Assembly: GCA_035235625.1 (NCBI GenBank) | Contig: CP141146.1 | Coordinates: forward strand, 8,302,501-8,366,500 | Direction: 5' to 3' | DNA from: Saururus chinensis | Taxonomy: Eukaryota; Streptophyta; Magnoliopsida; Piperales; Saururaceae | DNA: 64,000 bases | In this document: positions 1 to 36,059 of the stretch, one piece after another | Numbering within the stretch: position 1 is the first letter of the stretch | How the letters are laid out: every line of letters begins with the position of its first letter | The notes under the pieces: model-generated | The model's database searches: none | What the model was told of the DNA's origin: nothing | The model's input: the letters and a program-made list of their open reading frames with translations, nothing else | Program-made: the position numbers and the translations under genes

Positions 1-916
1 CCACATATTCCCTCGTTTCGAATGGGACCCACACATATCACATACGTACACTAGACATACATCTAAGTGTTCATTTATACATTGTGGGCCCTAGTCACAC
101 GAATTAGGTGTTAGGGGTAGAACACGTATTTAGCAAGGAGTCGACCCTGTCACGGGCTTAGCCGTATGTAGGGGGTCCAGGCCTCCTCGGGCTTTGCGTG
201 ACAAAGCCCGCGCCCGTTGTGTTTAAACCTTTATTAGAAACCGGAAGAATTCAAACTTGCAAGCCCAATTTATTCAAAGCTCAAATCTGGCCCGTTCTAT
301 TTTTGGAAAGCTTTGGGGATTGATTAGAGGGAGAGAATAGGGGAGAATATTCTTCCTTATTCCCAAACTGAAAATGGGACGCCCCCCTCTTTTTTGGATC
401 TAAGAATTCATTTGAATTCACTCCTCTCACCTCTCTCTTGGCCACCCCCCCTCTCCTAGTGTGAGTTTTGGTTCTCCGTTGGAGAAGCTACTGGCCGCTG
501 CTTCTCATTCCTATCCAAGGTGTTGTAGGCAGGCTGAAAGGAAGGAGAGGACTCTCCTTCATCGCTGATTTGCTTTGAGGTTCGATTGGGCTGAGATCTT
601 GCAACGTATTCTTTATCCAAGTGGGGTTTAAGAGGGATCAACACATAGGTAACTATATCTCATCCTTCACTTGTTTTGATCTTGCAATTGGCGTGCTAGA
701 TCTTTTAAGGAGGGCATGCAAGGGGCTGATTTGGCCTGGGTCAGTTCGTATCTCTTCTATATTTAATTATCTCCCTTTGATTGATTGTATGTGTTGCATG
801 TTTATTACTAATTTGTATTAGTGTTGCATGCTTATGGTGTAGATCTTGTAAAAATTGGATTTTGTTGTCCGCCACCTCTCCCACCACTGCTTCCACTGTG
901 ATCCGGCCACTCTATA
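1..916 (+). repeat. 5' LTR of Copia element 1 (left end outside window)
   Basis: Aligns base by base with 6107-6633 and 8972-9366. The common right end reads ccactctaYa, followed immediately by the primer-binding site. The complete LTR would be about 1.03 kb judging from the 3' copy. The two LTRs differ by scattered substitutions and small indels, so the insertion is not recent. Short ORFs inside the LTR are not conserved as proteins and were ignored. Confidence 0.92.
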
Positions 917-917
917 G

Positions 918-930
918 TGGTATCGGAGAC
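918..930 (+). promoter_or_regulatory. Primer-binding site (initiator Met tRNA type)
   Basis: TGGTATCGGAGAC starts one base after the LTR end. It differs by one substitution from the usual plant Copia site TGGTATCAGAGC over the first 11 bases, which pairs with the 3' end of initiator methionine tRNA and primes minus-strand DNA synthesis. Confidence 0.85.
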
Positions 931-2013
931 ATTTGGGGGAGGTTTGGTTGCTGGTTTGGTTAAGATCCAATCCATTTTACCCGATCTAGGTTTAGATTGA
1001 TAAAATTGGGGATTTTAGCCTAAATCGTCTGATCTACCCGATCTAATCAAAGGGTTGTATATGTTGGTTTGATTTAACTAATCTATGAATGTTTACATAA
1101 GATTTTGACTGTTGGATGCACATGATTAGAGTTTAAATTGAGTTTTTTGTGCACGATTGTATGCATAAGGGCATAGTGGTAATTTTGCCACATTTTCTTG
1201 TGCAAATTTTTTCTCTGATCACAAATTAGGCACACAAGTCCCTGCTGGACAGTAAGGGTCTTTTGAATTATTTTATTGTGATAATAATTTAATTTAATTG
1301 GTTAAGGGTGTAAGTTGACCAAAATAGCACTAGGGGCATTTTGGATAATTCACATGTGTATTGTGTGTGCTTAATATAGTTCTGTCCAGATCTGTTATTC
1401 TCTATGTTGATAACATGCTTTAATTGTTGTGATAATTTTTTGGTGTGCCTTTGAGGGCAGAAAAGACCAAAATAGCCCTAGGGGCATTTTGGTAATTTTA
1501 CACCAAAAGTTTTTTTGGACAGAATCTAAATTTCTAGAAGTGATCAGAATTATTATTTTCTAGAATATAACTTTAAAAAGTTTCTATGATTAATTTTGGT
1601 GTGCCCTTAAGGGTAGAAACGACCAAAATAGCCCTAGGGGCTACACCAAAATTTTTCTGGACAGAATTTTAAAATTTTAAAAGCCTCAAATTATGTTTAT
1701 TTGCTGATTTGTTTACTGGGTTATGTGTTTTGGGAATTCTAAATTCATAAAAACACATAGATACTTAATTAGGGTAACTTCCTTTAAGGGGTTAAGGGGT
1801 AGTTAGGGTTATTTTCGGAAAGTAACCCAAACCCTAATTAGGATATTCTAAATAAGGTAACTCAACATAATATACTCTTTTATCCCTAAGCTTATATTTA
1901 GTTTTAGAGTTTGTCTAAGTAAGTACCTATCTTTGAAGCAGTCAACCTACCTTAAATAGTACTAATTTCCTATTCACTGCCTGTTTTCCCTATAGATTAA
2001 ATTGACTTCTAAA
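931..2013 (+). other. Untranslated leader of Copia element 1
   Basis: AT-rich leader without a credible ORF. It carries three spaced copies of a block reading roughly 'gaccaaaatagccctagggg' (about 1317-1345, 1440-1500 and 1596-1650), each tied to 'ggcattttgg' and 'ttggtgtgcc' segments. Related blocks lie in the leader of the minus-strand Copia copy at about 58.5-58.9 kb, so they belong to the family. Confidence 0.7.
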
Positions 2014-2688: not shown

Positions 2689-3420
2689 AAAGCTTTCAAG
2701 AAGAAGGGGAAGAAGCCTCAGAACAAGGGCTCTGGAAAAGGGAATGACAAACCCAAAGGTGCATATTTTAAGTATGACCAGATGGGTCACTTCAAGGCTA
2801 ACTGTCCCCAGAAAGATAACCATTCAAGCAAGGACAAGGGCAAGAGCGAGGATTTCGTCTGTGTTGTCTCTGAAGTGATGCTTGCTGACATCAAGGAGAA
2901 GACTTGGTGGCTGGATTCAGGAGCTACTGTGCATGTTTCCCACTCTAGGGGAACAAGGGGCGAGATGGTCAATCTGATTCTAGGCCAGAACAAAGTCTTC
3001 ATGGGGAATAACACGTACTACGAGGTAGAGGCTATGGGGAGCTACAAGATTCCTCTAAAGAATGGGTCTAACTTTGTCCTGACAGTTATGCTCTTTGCTC
3101 CTTCCATCAAGAAGAACCTGATTTCAATCCCTGTTCTGACCAAGAAGGGGTTTGAGGTTAGGTACAAAAGGAGTAAGGCAACTGTGGGCAAGGGTGGGAC
3201 CATTTTGTTTATTGCTTCTTTAATTAATGAATTGTATTGCTTAGATGTAATGAACTCTATTGAATCTAATGAAATAAGCGCTTCTAAGTATTTTGTGTTG
3301 CCTGTGGATGATGCTTTACTTTGGCATATGCGTTTGTGCCATGTAAATGTAGATAAACTACATAAGATGTCGAGCGCTGGGTTGTTAACCAAAATATCCA
3401 AAGACCCTACGTGTGTGTGA
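2689..3420 (+). pseudogene. pol: Copia zinc knuckle, protease and integrase N-terminus
   Basis: Continues in the gag frame after the TAG. The zinc knuckle at 2764-2804 reads YFKYDQMGHFKANC: the GH and last Cys are present, but the first two Cys of the CX2CX4HX4C motif are Tyr (TAT at 2764 and 2773). The aspartic protease follows with the WWLDSGA active-site motif (about 2905-2930). The integrase zinc-binding N-terminus starts with LLWHMRLCH (about 3315-3345). The frame stops at TGA 3418-3420, next to a GTGTGTGT run; the expected CEDC part of the zinc site continues in the next frame, so this is a frameshift. Confidence 0.85.
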
Positions 3421-4440: not shown

Positions 4441-5400
4441 TTGCTATTCAGGAAGAGATGGACTCTATCCTAAAGAACAAGGTCTGGGAGATAGTGGATC
4501 CACCATAAGGGTGAAAGCTCATTGGGTGTAAATGGATCTTCAAAAAGAAGCTTAAGGTTGATGGGTCTATAAATAAGTACAAGGCGAGATTAATGGCCAA
4601 GGGGTTCACCCAAGTGTATGAGATAGACTTTAAGGAGACATACTCACCGGTGTCAAGATTTGACTCGATTAGATGTCTCTTAGCATGTGTTGCTTACTTT
4701 GATTTAGAGTTGCACCAAATAGATGTAAAGACTATCTTCCTAAATGGAGATTTAGAGGAGGAGATTTACATGGAACAACCTGAGGGTTATGTGATTCCTG
4801 GAGAGGAACACAAGGTGTGCAAGCTCATAAAATCATTGTATGGCCTAAAACAATCTCCCAGGCAATGGTACTTCACTTTTCACAAGGTGATTAGTGAGTA
4901 TGGGTTCATAGTGAACAAACACGATCATTGTGTTTATACCTTCCGGGATGGGACTAGGTATATGATGTTGTCATTGTATGTAGATGTCATACTCTTGATG
5001 GGGAATGACCTTAGTATGATAATCAATTTAAAGGAATGGCTCAAAACCTAGTTTGAGATGAAAGACATGGGTGAGGCATCCTACATCCTCGGGATAAAAA
5101 TGGATAGAGATAGAAAGCTAGGAAGCTTAGTATATCTAAAGAGTCATACATAGAGAGCGTTCTTAAACGCTTCAATGTTATTGGTTGGAAAACCATTGAA
5201 TCCCCTATATACAAGAGTACTGTGTTGTCTAAGAGTATGGCTCCTCAGTCAGAGGAAGACCGACTCTAGATGGAGTCCGTGCCATATGCACAGGCTATTG
5301 GCAGCTTGATGTATGCCATGACCTGTACTCGATCTTATTTGAGTTTTGTAGTAAGCTTGTTAAGCCGTTACCAAATAGACCCTGGTCTTTAGCACTAGCA
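4441..5400 (+). pseudogene. pol: Copia reverse transcriptase with mutated active site
   Basis: RVT_2-type RT. 4593-5051 is open for 152 residues and contains KARLMAKGFTQ, the ETYSPVSRFDSIR block, QIDVKTIFLNGDLEEEIYM (normally DVKTAFLNG), and SLYGLKQSPRQWY. The catalytic YVDD box reads YVDV: the second Asp is Val at 4986-4988. Stops occur upstream (TAA in 4505-4508) and downstream (TAG in 5049-5051). The region after 5051 (MGEASYILGI and following) is the RT connection in broken frames. Confidence 0.88.
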
Positions 5401-5950
5401 AGCAGTGAAGAGGGTATTTCGGTACCTATTAGGGTCTAAGAGTTTAAAACTCACCTATCAGGCGGAAAGTCTGTCATTGGCTGGATATAGTAATTCAGAC
5501 TATGCGGGGGATCCAGATGACAAGAAATTCACTGCTGGATATGTCTTCATGTTTGGAGGCGGTGCTATATCGTGGGCAAGCAAGAAACAAAAGAGTGTTT
5601 CTAAGTCTACGATGGAAGCTGAGTTTTATGCATATAGTATTGCAGCTTCCCGGCAGTTTGGATTAAGGAGTTTCTATCAAAATTAGGGCTAGAAAACTGG
5701 ACTGATGCTCTTGTCCAGATGTATTGCGATAATCTGGCTACAGTGTCGACACTTAAGAATGGGGAGATCAGTGTCAGGGGGTAAGCACATTGAGGTGCAT
5801 TACTATTACATCTTCGACATGCTACAGAGAGGAAAAGTGATTGTGAGTCATCTTCCTACTTTTGAGATGTTGGCAGATTCGTTCACTAAGGCCTTAACAA
5901 CGAATCTATTTTCTAAGCACACTCATAGCATTGGTCTTCGACAGGACTAG
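5401..5950 (+). pseudogene. pol: Copia RNase H domain
   Basis: Two overlapping frames carry the RNase HI domain. SDYAGDPDDKKFTAGYVF and SWASKKQKSVSKSTMEAEF (5490-5640) contain the first Asp and the Glu of the catalytic set, then a stop at 5684-5686. A second frame (5705-5950) has KHIEVHYYYI and the LADSFTKAL end motif. This domain removes template RNA during reverse transcription. Confidence 0.85.
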
Positions 5951-5989
5951 CGCTGGTCGTTGTTGGACCATATGAGCCCTTCACCCATA

Positions 5990-5997
5990 GTGGGGGA
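5990..5997 (+). promoter_or_regulatory. Polypurine tract of Copia element 1
   Basis: GTGGGGGA immediately precedes the LTR start TGTTGGACC. It is the plus-strand priming site. The minus-strand Copia copy has the equivalent AGTAGGGGA at 52043-52051. Confidence 0.75.
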
Positions 5998-6638
5998 TGT
6001 TGGACCATGGTATGGGCTCGGGCCGGGTTTGGTCCAACATGTCATGGTCTGAGTGAACCGGTACGGGTCACGTGGTCCAAGGGTGGTGGGGGCGGACATG
6101 CCAACACCACATGTTCCCTCGTTACACATAATTTTAATGGGACCCGCACATGTCACACATGTACACTAGACATACATCGAAGTGTGCATTTACACATTGT
6201 TAGGCCTAGTCGCGCGAATTAGGTGTCGGGTAGGACAAGTGTTTAGCGAGGGGTTGACCCTATCGCGGGCTTGGCCGTGTGCAGGGGGAGGCCTCCGCAA
6301 GCTCTGTGTGACAGAGCCCGTGCCCGTTATGTTTGAACTTCTATTAGAAACCAGAAGAATTCAAGCTTGCAGGCCCAATTTATTCAAAACTCAAATCTGG
6401 CCCGTTCTATTGTTGAAAAGCTTTGGTGATTGACTAGAGGGAGAGAATAAGGGAGAATATTCTCCCTTATTTCCAAACTAAAAATGGGACGCCCCCCTCT
6501 TTTTTGGATCTAAGAATTCATTTGAATTCACTCCTCTCACCTCTCTCTTGACCGCTCCCCCTCTCTCCTTGTGTGAGTTTTGCTTCTCCATTGGAGAAGC
6601 TGCTGGCCGCCGCTTCTCATCCCTATCCAAGGCATTGT
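5998..6638 (+). repeat. 3' LTR of Copia element 1, left part
   Basis: Begins TGTTGGACCATGG at 5998 and aligns with the 5' LTR from 6107. It is interrupted after ATTGT (6634-6638) by the solo LTR. The uninterrupted 5' LTR shows that the empty site read ccaaggtgttgtaggcaggc. Confidence 0.92.
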
Positions 6639-7013
6639 TGTAACGATCGCGAATTTTTGGTATGAGTTCTTGCCTCTAATAAAATTATTTTATGAGTTTT
6701 TTAATTATTTTAAATTATTTAGAGGTAAATTTTTAGAGACTTTTTATATGGGTTGATAGAGCTCAGTGAGACGAGCGTAACGAACCCAAGAACACATAAA
6801 ACGGAGGTCAGGAGTAAAAGTTACGACCTCGAAAAAAGTGTCTTATGGGCGGGACCCACTTTGAAAGTATGAGGTAACCTACTCATGTGCAGTCTTGTTT
6901 TTAAAAGCTTGTCGATATGAGTCTATCGATACTAAGAACGTGTAATTCCAACTTCAAGATAGGAAGCTATCGCGTTTTGAAGTTGAGATATTAATTGAAT
7001 AAAATAATATTAT

Positions 7014-32010: not shown

Positions 32011-33111
32011 CCGTAACCAATTTCCCAGCGCACGGGTGGCTCATCTTCCTCTTACCCCTCCCTAGCCGTATAAGGGTTGTCGCCGAACCTGTCCTTGAAA
32101 ATCCTTTCTCCGTCCAGCAATGCCAATTTACCAAACATTTGCAATGCCCCGGCCTGTTGACAAGATGTACAGGTCGATACCTCCGGACGACCCACAATGC
32201 ACTGTCGCATACATACCAGCACGGGTGTGATAGGCGTTTGTAGGCCTAAATCCGAATGGGTGCCTGTTTACACCAACAGTCTTCTCACGGATCACTAGTT
32301 TGTATCTGCAATCTTCTACTGAGGTTCACAGCCACCCGGGAGGCGCTTCACCGGGTGGACTAATCTTCTCCTCCTCCTCTTCATGTCAGAAGCATGGGAT
32401 CTTGTATTCTACCTCTAATTGAGCATCACGGGGAATTGATGAAGTGCTGTTTAGAAGTCGAAAATGGGATTTTTCGTCATTACGTGGGACCAAGCCCGCT
32501 GCCGCCCCTCTTTAAGACATTCAAACCACGAGTAGCTACTGGATGGACTCTATCCCATCTTAGAAAATCAAATCACAACTCCTCTTCAAGGGTTTGTGGA
32601 AGTCGTGGACAGAATCACATCTCTATATCGTTCTAAACTTCCTTACCGTGAAGTTCTCCCCACGCCCTTAATAGCTCCAATAGAAAAAAAATCGCGTTTC
32701 ATTTTAATTGCTCCATTTCTCTAATTTAAACGTCAACAACTCTACGATGCTTCTCACTTTAGAAAAAAAATTATCTACTACTTTCAGCTTCATTCTGTTA
32801 CTGTTTCATCACCCTGCTCATAGGCCGATGTGAAGCGGGGATACCACTACTTCTTCACTCTGAGAATCCGGCGAAGTTGGGATACCGCTACCCCATCACC
32901 CACCTCTCACGCTCCTCCTCGTCCCGCTCATGGCCATGGAGAAAACTTAGCAATCGGAAGCAACAACGAGTCATGAAGTTTTCTAAAAAAAAAAAAAAGA
33001 ACACAGACGTCATTGAGAACATAGAGAATCAAAACAAATTCTATCTAGTTATATGGTCGCCATGCAAAAGAGAAATACTATGGTGCAAAAGGCAGAGAGA
33101 GAGACGACTGA
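32011..33111. other. No gene recognised
   Basis: Contains plus-strand open frames at 31986-32243, 32394-32636 and 32877-33137 with no known motif. The words gaagcggggataccactac and gaagttgggataccgctacc (32830-32895) form a short diverged tandem repeat. Confidence 0.4.
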
Positions 33112-33300
33112 TCAGGAATCCAAAAATCCATAGCTGAAGATAAAGATGACGGATAATCTAGTTGCCACTGTGGAAAGATCTAATGTGCTAACGTGACTGA
33201 CAAAAATCTGCATGGTAGAGTTGAGGCCATATATGCAGAGGATGTTCAGGGCGATGGGCACGACAATGACCCAGAGCTTACGCGACTCGTGGTTGTAGAC
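33112..33300 (-). pseudogene. MATE (DETOXIFICATION) transporter fragment
   Basis: Sixty-two codons without a stop on the minus strand, from 33300 down to TGA 33112-33114. The segment ESRKLWVIVVPIALNI, then GLNSTMQIFVSHVSTLDLS, and then SVIFIFSYGFL matches the first two transmembrane segments of plant MATE exporters in order and spacing (family pattern ESKKLW..., VFAGHVGTLELA, ...FGFL). The conserved GH is SH here. The fragment is cut on the upstream side by the MITE at 33302 and ends at a stop where the family continues LGMGSALETLCGQA. MATE proteins are membrane exporters of metabolites; this piece is non-functional. Confidence 0.6.
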
Positions 33301-33301
33301 C

Positions 33302-33464
33302 TACTGCAAGAAAATAGGGTATTAGCGTCGCTAATACTTGTAAAAGCATTGCTATAAGTTATTTGCGATGCTTATTTACCGTCGCACCCAAATAACAGTT
33401 ATTAGTAACACCTTTTTAAGCGTCGTTAATATAAAAGCATCGCTACAAACATTTTGTTGTAGTG
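33302..33464. mobile_element. Small CACTA-type MITE
   Basis: A 163-bp fold-back. The left end TACTGCAAGAAAAT and the right end ATTTTGTTGTAGTG are inverted partners of the CACTACAANAAAAT type; the first base of the left end is mutated. Subterminal GCGTCGCTAAT and AAGCGTCGTTAAT words are present. The flanking ACC (33299-33301 and 33465-33467) is a 3-bp target duplication. Confidence 0.78.
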
Positions 33465-33707
33465 ACCCTCCAGGCGTCCGTTAAGCCTGTCACTAGCCTG
33501 TATTCGCCAAAGCCGGATCCGGAGCCTGAGGAGTCTAGTCCAATGTGCCCACCATTCAGCAAAGGTGCCTCCATGGGCTTCGGTAACTTATTACTCTAGC
33601 GTACAACATCCACCCACCAGTGCGAAGAGCAGGGAAGTCGGAGCGGTGGGGGTAAGGTAGGAGACAAAGTATATAAAAGGAGTCTCTGGCAGCTTCGACG
33701 TGCCTGC

Positions 33708-34019
33708 CCTATAAGGGATACGACCAAGATAGCCTGAATCTGTTGCCCATGACGAACTCTGGAGTGCCTATTCTGGAACTAGTAGAAGACATTGGCATCG
33801 AAAACCGCACTGAACTTCTCAAGTAGCCTCTTGATCCTCACTGTTTCATCCTTGGGGGGATTCACCATCCCGCTGTTGAAGATGGACTCGAGGATCATGA
33901 TCTGCTCGGGCTTGGGGTTCCATCGGGACCTGATCGGTTCATGCGGAGGCTTATCAGGGCCACCATGGCTGCTAGAACTAGCAGCAGTAGTTGGATTGTC
34001 GCCTATAAGGGATACGACG
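33708..34019 (+). repeat. 17-bp direct repeat bracketing the WOX fragment
   Basis: cctataagggatacgac occurs exactly at 33708-33724 and 34003-34019. The first copy sits just past the end of readable homeodomain sequence. The second sits where WOX-like sequence gives way to UGT-like sequence on the other strand. Confidence 0.9.
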
Positions 34020-34099
34020 ACGAGCTGCCTTGCATCACCAACAAAATGGCCCCTTACATCGGCTGTATCTCCACCGCCTACCCGTCCATTACTTTCCAT
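33725..34099 (-). pseudogene. WUSCHEL-related homeobox (WOX11/12-like) fragment
   Basis: The minus-strand frame from ATG 34099 to TAG 33779-33781 encodes 106 residues. Residues about 57-106 are the first part of a WOX homeodomain: [39 protein letters not shown] and DANVFY. The next codon, Trp in the invariant WFQNR of helix 3, is TAG; after it the frame continues FQNRHSRVRHG. This matches intermediate-clade WOX proteins (WOX11/12 type), transcription factors of root and shoot initiation. Only one exon-sized piece is present. The N-terminal 30 or so residues lie antisense to UGT-like sequence and are probably not original WOX sequence. Confidence 0.85.
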
Positions 34100-34450
34100 C
34101 GCCTACCACCGATCTCCCTCCCTCTCGAAAGATCCACATCCCGCCACCACGAGACTTTCTTCTTCCGCCTCGCCCACCTTAACAGCCCACTCCTCTTCGA
34201 TGCCCTCAGCTCCATCTCATCCTAGACTTCTTCAGCCACCCGACCCTTGACATCTTTGCCAAGCTAGGCATCCCGTCTTACCTCTTCTTCACGTCACCGG
34301 CCTAGCTCTGTCCTCTCCGTCTTCCTCCATGTCTCCACTATCCAATGCCATATGATGGGCAGATAAGGTGACATGCCCCGCCTTCAAGCTTCTTCAAAAC
34401 CACACAACATAGCCTCTGTAGAGTTGCACCATTTCCCCGTATCCAAGCTT
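34030..34450 (+). pseudogene. UDP-glycosyltransferase N-terminal fragment (UGT88/72-like)
   Basis: The plus strand reads [26 protein letters not shown] and RLAHLNSPLLFDALSSISS, stop, and then in another frame LDFFSHPTLDIFAKLGIPSY and LFFTSPA. This is the order and spacing of residues about 55-150 of plant family-1 glycosyltransferases, which transfer sugar from UDP-sugar to small acceptors. The catalytic His region upstream and the PSPG box downstream are absent. After 34350 the similarity fades (HHFPVSKL). There is a stop and a frameshift at about 34224. Confidence 0.7.
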
Positions 34451-35800
34451 TATCATGGCTCCCTTCTCTTCACTCCCTCTTTCCCTCTTCTTTATGTTCT
34501 TTGTTCAGTATCTCTCTGCTTCCTTCACCACCGATGGCACCGTCTTTTTGCCTCATTGCATTCGCTTTCCTCGACCCACTTGACCACAAGTGATACTCCC
34601 CACCTCATCAAGTCCTCCGTCGCCCGCTCCATCGCTCGCTTCTGCCGCCACCTCCAACACCGGTAGGTCCCGCTGCCTCTCTCCCCCGGGAGTGACTACA
34701 TGTTGTCCCTTGCACTTGGTCTTCACCAGGCATAGTGCATTAGCCTGTACATGGATGGGATGCCAATACAGCACGTTCGACTTTGGCTTCGTAACGGGGA
34801 GTTTTATTATGATTATATTTACACGAGACTTATCATAAGATAAAAATTATAAAAATGAGAAATGGAGCTATTAATATAGGACGGAGGGAGTATTAACTTT
34901 TGTTTCCTTTTACTTTTAATATTTAATAGATTTACTTATTACTTTTGCTTGCCTTTTGAATTGTTTGCTTTCTTTGAAAGAGTAAAATTTTACATTTCTT
35001 ATAATCATGAAAAAAACAAGTTTTTAGGATTCAAAAGTATTCTTCCTTCCACTTCTTCTCTATGTTGTTGGCTCCCATCATCTATTAACCAAGCATTTTT
35101 GTCTAGCTTGACATATTCAAATGGTAAAATATCATATGAACTTAGAGATAAAATTTTATACTATTGCAATATGGTAAAACTTTATTATTTTATATAATAC
35201 AATTTTATACGAAAATAAAACTAAGAGCATACTTCAAATCTGAGGTATTTTATAGAGAATGATTGAGAAGACAGTTATTGGAAAATACTTGTTGGTTTTG
35301 TGAACACCAATTCCACCGTATGGCATGGAAATCAATGAGCTGAGACTATGTCAACTGTTCTTCTTGATTGCAAATAAGAATATAGGCCCTAAAACCATGC
35401 TGAAAATGAAGTCCCTAATAATATGCAACACAAAGAAGATAGAAGATGAGGAAGATCACGTATAATTGATGTGGAAAGAAAAATAGCTCAAAGTAGTGTT
35501 TCCTGACGGGCTGAAATGATGTCACCTACATCAAGTAACCAGCGAAAAGTTTTTATCACCCAAGGGCGTTTAGCAATAACAAAGGCTTTTCCACTGTAAC
35601 ATCTGTCATCGACAGTGGTAATCCAGGTGTCGTCCTTAGTGGTGCGTTATGGGGTTGACAAGCAGGAGTAAGTGTTTGTTCGGAGTGTCATCGTGATGAG
35701 GCATGGGGACAGGATCGACAATGCAGAGCCACTATAGGTCAGCATGGCCCCGCGTCCATTGCCCCTCACTGATGCGGGCCTCGTCCCAAAGTATGGCATA
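34450..35800. other. No gene recognised; single Stowaway-like end
   Basis: The sequence aggacggagggagtat at 34878-34893 is the reverse of the Stowaway terminus TACTCCCTCCGTCC; no partner end was found. The open frames at 34373-34838 (both strands) and 34949-35197 have no recognised motif. Confidence 0.4.
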
Positions 35801-35824: not shown

Positions 35825-36045
35825 CTGTTAACTCTATAACAGTGGCTTTAATAGCCGTCGCTGAAATTGTATCTTTAGCGACAAACTTGGTAAACCGAAG
35901 CTAATGCATACTCTCAGCGACGGCCAGCAAATTCAATTGTTGAAACTTATATTTAGCGGCGAACTTAGGACCGTGGCTAATGCATACTTTCAGTGACAGT
36001 CTTGATTGGTTAAGACCGTTGCTGATGGTAATTTTTAGAAGAAAA
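35825..36045. repeat. CACTA-like subterminal repeats (left cluster)
   Basis: The words agccgtcgctg, tagcgacaaacttggt, cagcgacggcc and agcggcgaacttagg, with the phrase 'gctaatgcatactYtcag', occur twice. A related cluster in the same style is at 43570-43660 and 44774-44815. Confidence 0.6.
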
Positions 36046-36059
36046 AAAATTTAAGCATT

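Follow-up and report, generated by a model that had tools for sequence, protein, structure and literature searches.

How did pieces of unrelated host genes come to lie side by side at this locus of Saururus chinensis, and by what vehicle? A first-pass annotation of the window (the whole stretch of 64,000 nucleotides analysed here, C7:8302501-8366500) had recognised a MATE transporter piece, a WOX homeodomain piece (which it labelled WOX11/12-like) and a UDP-glycosyltransferase (UGT) piece, and had suggested a gene-capturing transposon or filler-DNA repair, with the ends of the carrier still to be found. The route by which cut-and-paste transposons take up exons is still disputed. We found that all three pieces lie inside one element of 2,235 bp, including a nested MITE, whose ends are now located at window positions 32656 and 34890. 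Very probably, the feature is a copy of a non-autonomous Stowaway/Tc1-mariner-type transposon with a cargo of host-gene fragments, acquired serially and in nested fashion through repair-type events; nothing points to a host function.

The limits of the carrier were assessed by comparison with related loci in the genome (516 Mb in 11 contigs). In the longer comparisons, including those with loci that share only part of the interior, similarity spanned 32668 to about 34893 and then stopped, and the stops fell at the inverted repeats (CTCCCTCCGTCCTATATTAATAGCTCC and complement), beyond which stands TA. These ends are of the Stowaway/Tc1-mariner type, the target site is TA, and the terminal inverted repeat (TIR) of the family begins CTCCCTCC, which we take to be the Stowaway consensus. 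The left TIR, decayed in the window copy, is intact in its relatives. No 9-bp or 3-bp target duplication was seen at the carrier ends, and no inner TIR or arm remnant was seen in the window element. The order of the cargo was established from an alignment of four copies and comparison with donor loci, and runs left arm, KCS piece 1, MATE, KCS piece 2, 17-bp repeat, WOX, 17-bp repeat, UGT piece 1, aspartic protease, UGT piece 2, right arm, with KCS, UGT and protease on the plus strand and MATE and WOX on the minus strand:

32656..34890, no strand: whole carrier, non-autonomous Stowaway/mariner-type (Pack-Mariner), with inverted terminal repeats and ends common to related copies elsewhere
32656..32677, plus: left TIR, decayed (3 substitutions and 4 deletions against the 24-bp family TIR); flank TT, not TA
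32656..32828, no strand: left arm, common to the element family; inner limit approximate
32873..32938, plus: KCS (3-ketoacyl-CoA synthase) piece 1, 62/66 identical to donor L034
32941..33681, minus: MATE transporter piece, within the KCS piece, 475/544 identical to donor L013 (MITE excluded)
33301..33463, no strand: CACTA-like MITE, 163 bp, inside the MATE piece; target duplication GAC at 33298-33300 and 33464-33466
33683..33710, plus: KCS piece 2, 25/28 match to donor L034 (score 41), much shorter than in relative L017
33708..33724, plus: 17-bp direct repeat CCTATAAGGGATACGAC, first copy, bounding WOX
33721..34000, minus: WOX homeodomain piece, 255/280 identical to donor L021
34002..34018, plus: 17-bp direct repeat CCTATAAGGGATACGAC, second copy; one diverged copy in the WOX-less relative L017
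34018..34380, plus: UGT piece 1, 321/359 identical to donor L019
34383..34755, plus: aspartic protease piece (5' leader and first codons), within the UGT piece, 246/274 identical to donor L018
34762..34784, plus: UGT piece 2, shortened relative to the C8 copy, against which it was positioned by alignment
34799..34890, no strand: right arm, common to the element family (genome-wide, 411 first-look candidates, of which 40 were scored)
34864..34890, minus: right TIR, exact match to CTCCCTCCGTCCTATATTAATAGCTCC; TA outside at 34891-34892

MITEs are short (under about 800 bp) and AT-rich, and the carrier, at 2,235 bp with an interior GC of 0.498 (window 0.388), is not one itself. The three pieces first recognised are real, on the strands originally given, and are identified through donors L013, L021 and L019; their limits needed correction. 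The MATE piece, drawn at 33112-33300, in fact extends over 32941-33681 and is interrupted by the MITE; WOX moved from 33725-34002 to 33721-34000; and UGT, which had been taken to 34450, stops at 34380 in piece 1 and is followed by the aspartic protease at 34383-34755. With this protease, and with KCS at 32873-32938 and 33683-33710, the captured genes number five rather than three. The 3-bp duplication reported beside the CACTA-like MITE is present (GAC), but the MATE piece does not end there, as homology to its donor resumes past the MITE. The MITE is absent from the three sister copies described below and is therefore a later insertion; similar short repeats occur elsewhere in the genome. At 35850-36050 in the window, short repeated motifs are reminiscent, by eye only, of a second CACTA-like MITE.

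Within the cargo, a short partial second copy precedes KCS piece 1 (by eye in the alignment), the MATE piece consists of the first exon and upstream DNA with its start codon at 33572-33574, and, in the window copy, stops interrupt both the WOX and the UGT frame. The two CCTATAAGGGATACGAC repeats around WOX do not differ from each other in the window; in all three sisters they carry mismatches but can still be recognised. Pfam matches on the window pieces themselves were weak (MatE 0.012 and Homeodomain 0.0088, both below the cut-off; no Pfam match for the UGT piece), so that the identities of the pieces rest on the donors.

Parental loci were sought in the same genome and found for all five captured genes. 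The KCS donor matched FAE1_CUT1_RppA at 1.5e-109 and the WOX donor Homeodomain at 7e-11 (Pfam), while the UGT donor has a 481-aa frame with UDPGT at 2.4e-21 and the protease donor a 490-aa frame with TAXi_N at 1.9e-29. For the MATE donor (C2:8.87 Mb), exon 1 gave MatE at 9e-4, below the cut-off, and exon 2, 3.7 kb beyond it, continues the profile at 1.5e-25. The captured stretches come from 5' parts of the donors: UGT piece 1 covers 0.12-0.38 of the frame and the protease piece -0.19 to 0.08, with KCS at 0.07-0.29 and WOX at 0.03-0.34 as rough fractions based on stop-to-stop or two-exon spans. A TIR scan of the five donor stretches (up to five mismatches) found no TIR adjoining any captured stretch; it returned one arm-like end in the MATE donor locus, some 1.3 kb away from the exon, and in the protease donor locus a single match with 4 mismatches, without arm similarity.

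We also assessed whether the chimera has other copies with shared ends. Besides itself, the query 33000-34600 matched three places in the genome from query position 457 or 465 to 1601 at 86-91%, and the preceding part of the query adjoins each of them. These sisters lie at C8:17.75 Mb, C9:35.99 Mb and C2:21.29 Mb, giving four copies on four contigs with unrelated flanks. Both ends were located in the window, C8 and C9 copies and the right end only in the C2 copy (L011), in which the left TIR was not found and left-arm similarity resumes about 0.8 kb away; in the C8 sister (L024 and L009, C8:17.744-17.750 Mb), about 6.7 kb of inserted DNA separates the two parts. That several copies share their ends indicates that the composite has moved as a unit, and the early suggestion of a gene-capturing transposon was right in kind: this is a TIR/TA element with four copies and donor-derived cargo.

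The cargo is nested, with sequence from the same donor on both sides of MATE (KCS) and of the protease (UGT). Past the protease, the C8 sister retains 41 bp of UGT, donor-frame positions 640-680 (score 57; 300 shuffles reached 25 at most), and the C2 sister scores 41 against UGT (shuffled maximum 28). The relative on C10 (L017) carries KCS with MATE inside it, followed by UGT: KCS halts at '...atgatcctcatgga', then comes MATE, and KCS continues from 'gccgcact...' to '...gagcgctccggtct'. This relative lacks WOX and has a single diverged repeat copy, 'tctataagtgatacggtg', between KCS and UGT. It is split, as L017/L025 (C10:35.32-35.33 Mb), by an insertion of several kb, and its right part resembles L029, L030 and L032, not the window group.

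Four further relatives (L012, L014, L015 and L016) combine KCS piece 1 and MATE with a kelch piece (donor L053: 461-aa frame, Kelch_1 1.2e-19; 82% over 100 residues), and gave no match to WOX, UGT or protease. Their KCS piece 1 is identical to the donor at 62/68, 65/69, 57/62 and 64/68 positions, respectively, with scores of 71-98 against shuffled maxima of 24-28. In a donor-rooted tree of the MATE region, the window set and the L012 set each had support of 100, and the joining point of L017, with support of 77, does not resolve. Identity between the majority sequence of the four copies and the donors rises in the inferred order of addition, from MATE (489/547) through UGT (331/359) and protease (251/272) to WOX (267/283), which lends this order weak support because donor genes evolve at different rates; KCS fits an age order poorly (62/66 in the short piece, 226/270 in L017). 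Junctions in the window group have little microhomology, with 4-6 unassigned bases at UGT/protease.

The wider family was assessed with a 27-mer TIR pattern, which had 2,982 matches genome-wide at up to 3 mismatches (1,530 forward, 1,452 reverse) and none in the genome when read backwards as a control. We examined 19 elements reached by three routes: six by cargo common with the window (the window element, L010, L012, L014, L015 and L016), seven by the right arm (L026-L032; an eighth match, L025, proved to be the far end of L017) and six by convergent TIR pairs chosen by eye among the matches listed (L037-L042). TA lay directly outside 32 of the 37 called ends (L029 contributed only its left end). 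The other five were the left ends of the window element (TT), L041 (CA) and L030 (TT), the right end of L030, with TA four bases further out, and the right end of L012, where the call allowed for substitutions alone and the true end, flanked by TA, lies 2-5 bases further. Lengths ranged from 1,215 to 2,564 bp in the 18 elements with both ends called, a range that includes the arm array of L030 and, in the left part of L016 (C3:48.34 Mb, about 5170-6195), a roughly 1-kb inserted stretch of other origin. Interiors were GC-rich (0.468-0.573 in 18 elements, 0.522 in L042), and 120-bp arms were AT-rich (GC 0.275-0.375).

Inner arms or TIRs were present in two of the 19 stretches and in none of the others. 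L030 (C6:25.31 Mb) has at one end, at about 1765-2523, a tandem array of four left arms of about 217 bp, such as tandem insertion of related elements may be expected to leave. L042 (C1:7.07 Mb) has a 1,286-bp element at 53-1338, with TA outside the TIR at 1338, and a separate 164-bp TIR pair at 2947-3110, with TA on both sides, about 1.6 kb from it; MITE-sized members of the family thus also exist.

Among the 13 elements reached by routes other than cargo, 5 had a host gene identified by Pfam or donor. L030 contains an aspartic-protease stretch (TAXi_N 2e-15), L041 HSP70 (2.5e-13) and L042 rubredoxin (2e-8); L031 has kinase stretches (Pkinase best 3.9e-6) and a weak F-box (0.0023), both sub-threshold; and L040 is a chimera of two donors, Methyltransf_29 (L057, 1.4e-49) and ROH1-like (L058, 4.1e-95). 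Two more of the 13, L029 and L032, are linked to a host gene by resembling L030 along most of their length. No host gene was identified in the remaining six, four of which were scanned (L026, L028, L037 and L038; the other two are L027 and L039); ten ORFs of L026, L037, L038, L040 and L042, and one of L028, had no Pfam match. For both L037 and L038, similar pieces lie at several further loci, and three donor-donor junctions in L038, picked for overlapping BLAST ends and so not a fair sample, share about 3 (ttg), 4 (ggcg) and 3 (cga) bases. At L020 (C9:25.03 Mb), an intact UGT gene, a paralogue of the UGT donor, is followed closely downstream (about 6133-6743) by a short stretch with arm matches at both ends, the interior of which resembles the L042 rubredoxin fragment by eye and had no Pfam match.

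A mariner transposase source in the genome is plausible. A DDE_3 profile search of the genome gave no matches, and DUF7769 was found at eight places, including one 476-aa open frame. This frame, at L044 (C11:21.96 Mb, 346-1773, minus strand), combines DUF7769 with a weak Tc3-type HTH match and is by sequence a putative mariner-like transposase; element ends were not recognised in its vicinity. Inspection of four of the eight places showed no TIR of the matching kind, the one trace being a weak 39-bp right-arm match in L045 (E 0.005). An empty-site search with the flanks of L016, one of the 19 elements, matched only its own two flanks and no paralogous empty site.

The relatives occur in different states (KCS+MATE+kelch; KCS+MATE+UGT; the latter with protease and WOX), and since the donor genes survive in the same genome, the order and junctions of each uptake can be read. 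The ancestral element would have held the KCS fragment, inside which the MATE fragment then came. The UGT fragment would have joined downstream and received the aspartic-protease fragment within it, and the WOX fragment, probably the latest addition, would have entered where KCS meets UGT, duplicating 17 bp. We infer that excision, or breakage of a fork, inside the element was followed by synthesis-dependent repair, during which template switching copied the pieces in, and that a mariner transposase then mobilised the composite in trans. Following insertion at the present locus, the copy would have decayed and the CACTA-like MITE landed inside it. For the window element, the nesting and the 17-bp repeat favour repair-type gap filling or fork switching.

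Pack-MULEs, Pack-CACTAs and Helitrons, which the first-pass annotation had named as candidate carriers, are the best-known gene-capturing elements of plants, and the cargo is GC-rich and drawn from 5' gene parts, as in Pack-MULEs. Pack-MULEs have long Mutator TIRs and a 9-11 bp target duplication, Pack-CACTAs have TIRs beginning CACTA and a 3-bp target duplication, and Helitrons have no TIRs, with TC at the 5' end and a 3' hairpin with CTRR. A Stowaway/mariner-type TIR starting CTCCCTCC, inverted repeats at both ends and a TA target site contradict all three: ends and target site are other than the Mutator type, the ends are not CACTA (only the nested 163-bp MITE is CACTA-like) and clear terminal inverted repeats are present. 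It is very improbable that any of these carries the pieces, and a larger enclosing element with other TIRs is contradicted by the end of similarity at these TIRs. Filler-DNA repair probably does apply to the inner pieces, given the WOX repeat and the same-donor flanks, and the inner junctions look like repair products. As an account of the whole locus, a one-off rearrangement or filler-DNA patch instead of a mobile unit is scarcely credible, as the composite has spread and the same chimera stands at three other loci, on other contigs and with unrelated flanks.

A different route of growth is that two neighbouring family elements were mobilised as one, taking the host DNA between them, and that this happened repeatedly. 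Such fusion is described for Pack-TYPE elements, including rice Pack-Mariner cluster 217, in the available text of PMC8903248, where Gisby & Catoni cite the model and take it further. The tandem array of left arms in L030 suits fusion and may be an example of it, and the neighbouring element and short TIR pair of L042 represent the neighbourhood that fusion needs. In the window element, however, MATE and protease each have the same donor gene on both sides, and such nested cargo speaks against fusion, which puts new DNA between element ends and not inside a captured exon; a 17-bp direct repeat around WOX and the lack of an inner arm or TIR remnant also stand against it. We consider repeated fusion unlikely, and favour internal repair with template switching for the window element. 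More tentatively, and with some doubt, this Stowaway-type mariner family may be a major gene-shuffling vehicle of the genome, on a Pack-MULE-like scale, that grows by repeated internal template-switch repair rather than fusion, copying new gene fragments into the midst of older ones and leaving as traces short microhomology, templated duplications and donors nested in one another.

Better known as tiny MITEs, Stowaway-type mariners can build kilobase mosaics of five genes, which gene annotation may take for genes. The family resembles Stowaway MITEs and plant mariner-like elements in its TIR start, CTCCCTCC (presumably their consensus), and its TA target site, and differs from the short Stowaway MITEs in that 18 elements measure 1,215-2,564 bp with GC-rich interiors. 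With Pack-MULEs it has in common multi-gene mosaics, GC-rich cargo and 5' gene parts, whereas its TIRs and target-site duplication are different.

Pack-Mariners are already published, and ones with multiple loci are known in rice: as far as the available text goes, 19% of rice Pack-Mariners contain multiple distinct loci, most are said to be low copy, and capture by plant Pack-TYPE elements is proposed to occur via fusion of neighbouring elements (Gisby & Catoni 2022, PMC8903248). Its worked example has non-Pack members of 311 bp on average and a gene piece of 260-280 bp. The accessible part of PMC12550479 has nothing on gene capture. For animal Pack-TIRs, the text available of Tan et al. 2021 (PMC8277862) proposes gap filling and template switching, with a median microhomology of 2 bp, and attributes multicopy Pack-TIRs to template switching plus transposition (FoSTeST). 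Our element is like these in its proposed origin by template switching; they are from animals, and the word 'mariner' is absent from the main text in that available part. The window element shares with the rice Pack-Mariners of PMC8903248, as they appear in the available text, Mariner/Stowaway TIRs, TA, the lack of a transposase and host-gene fragments, and differs from the worked example there in that it is 2.2 kb long, draws on five donors with nesting, has relatives in other states and belongs to a family whose TIR matches number in the thousands. What it adds to known Pack-Mariners is its size, its five donors, a nested cargo of which relatives show other states, and the large family around it.
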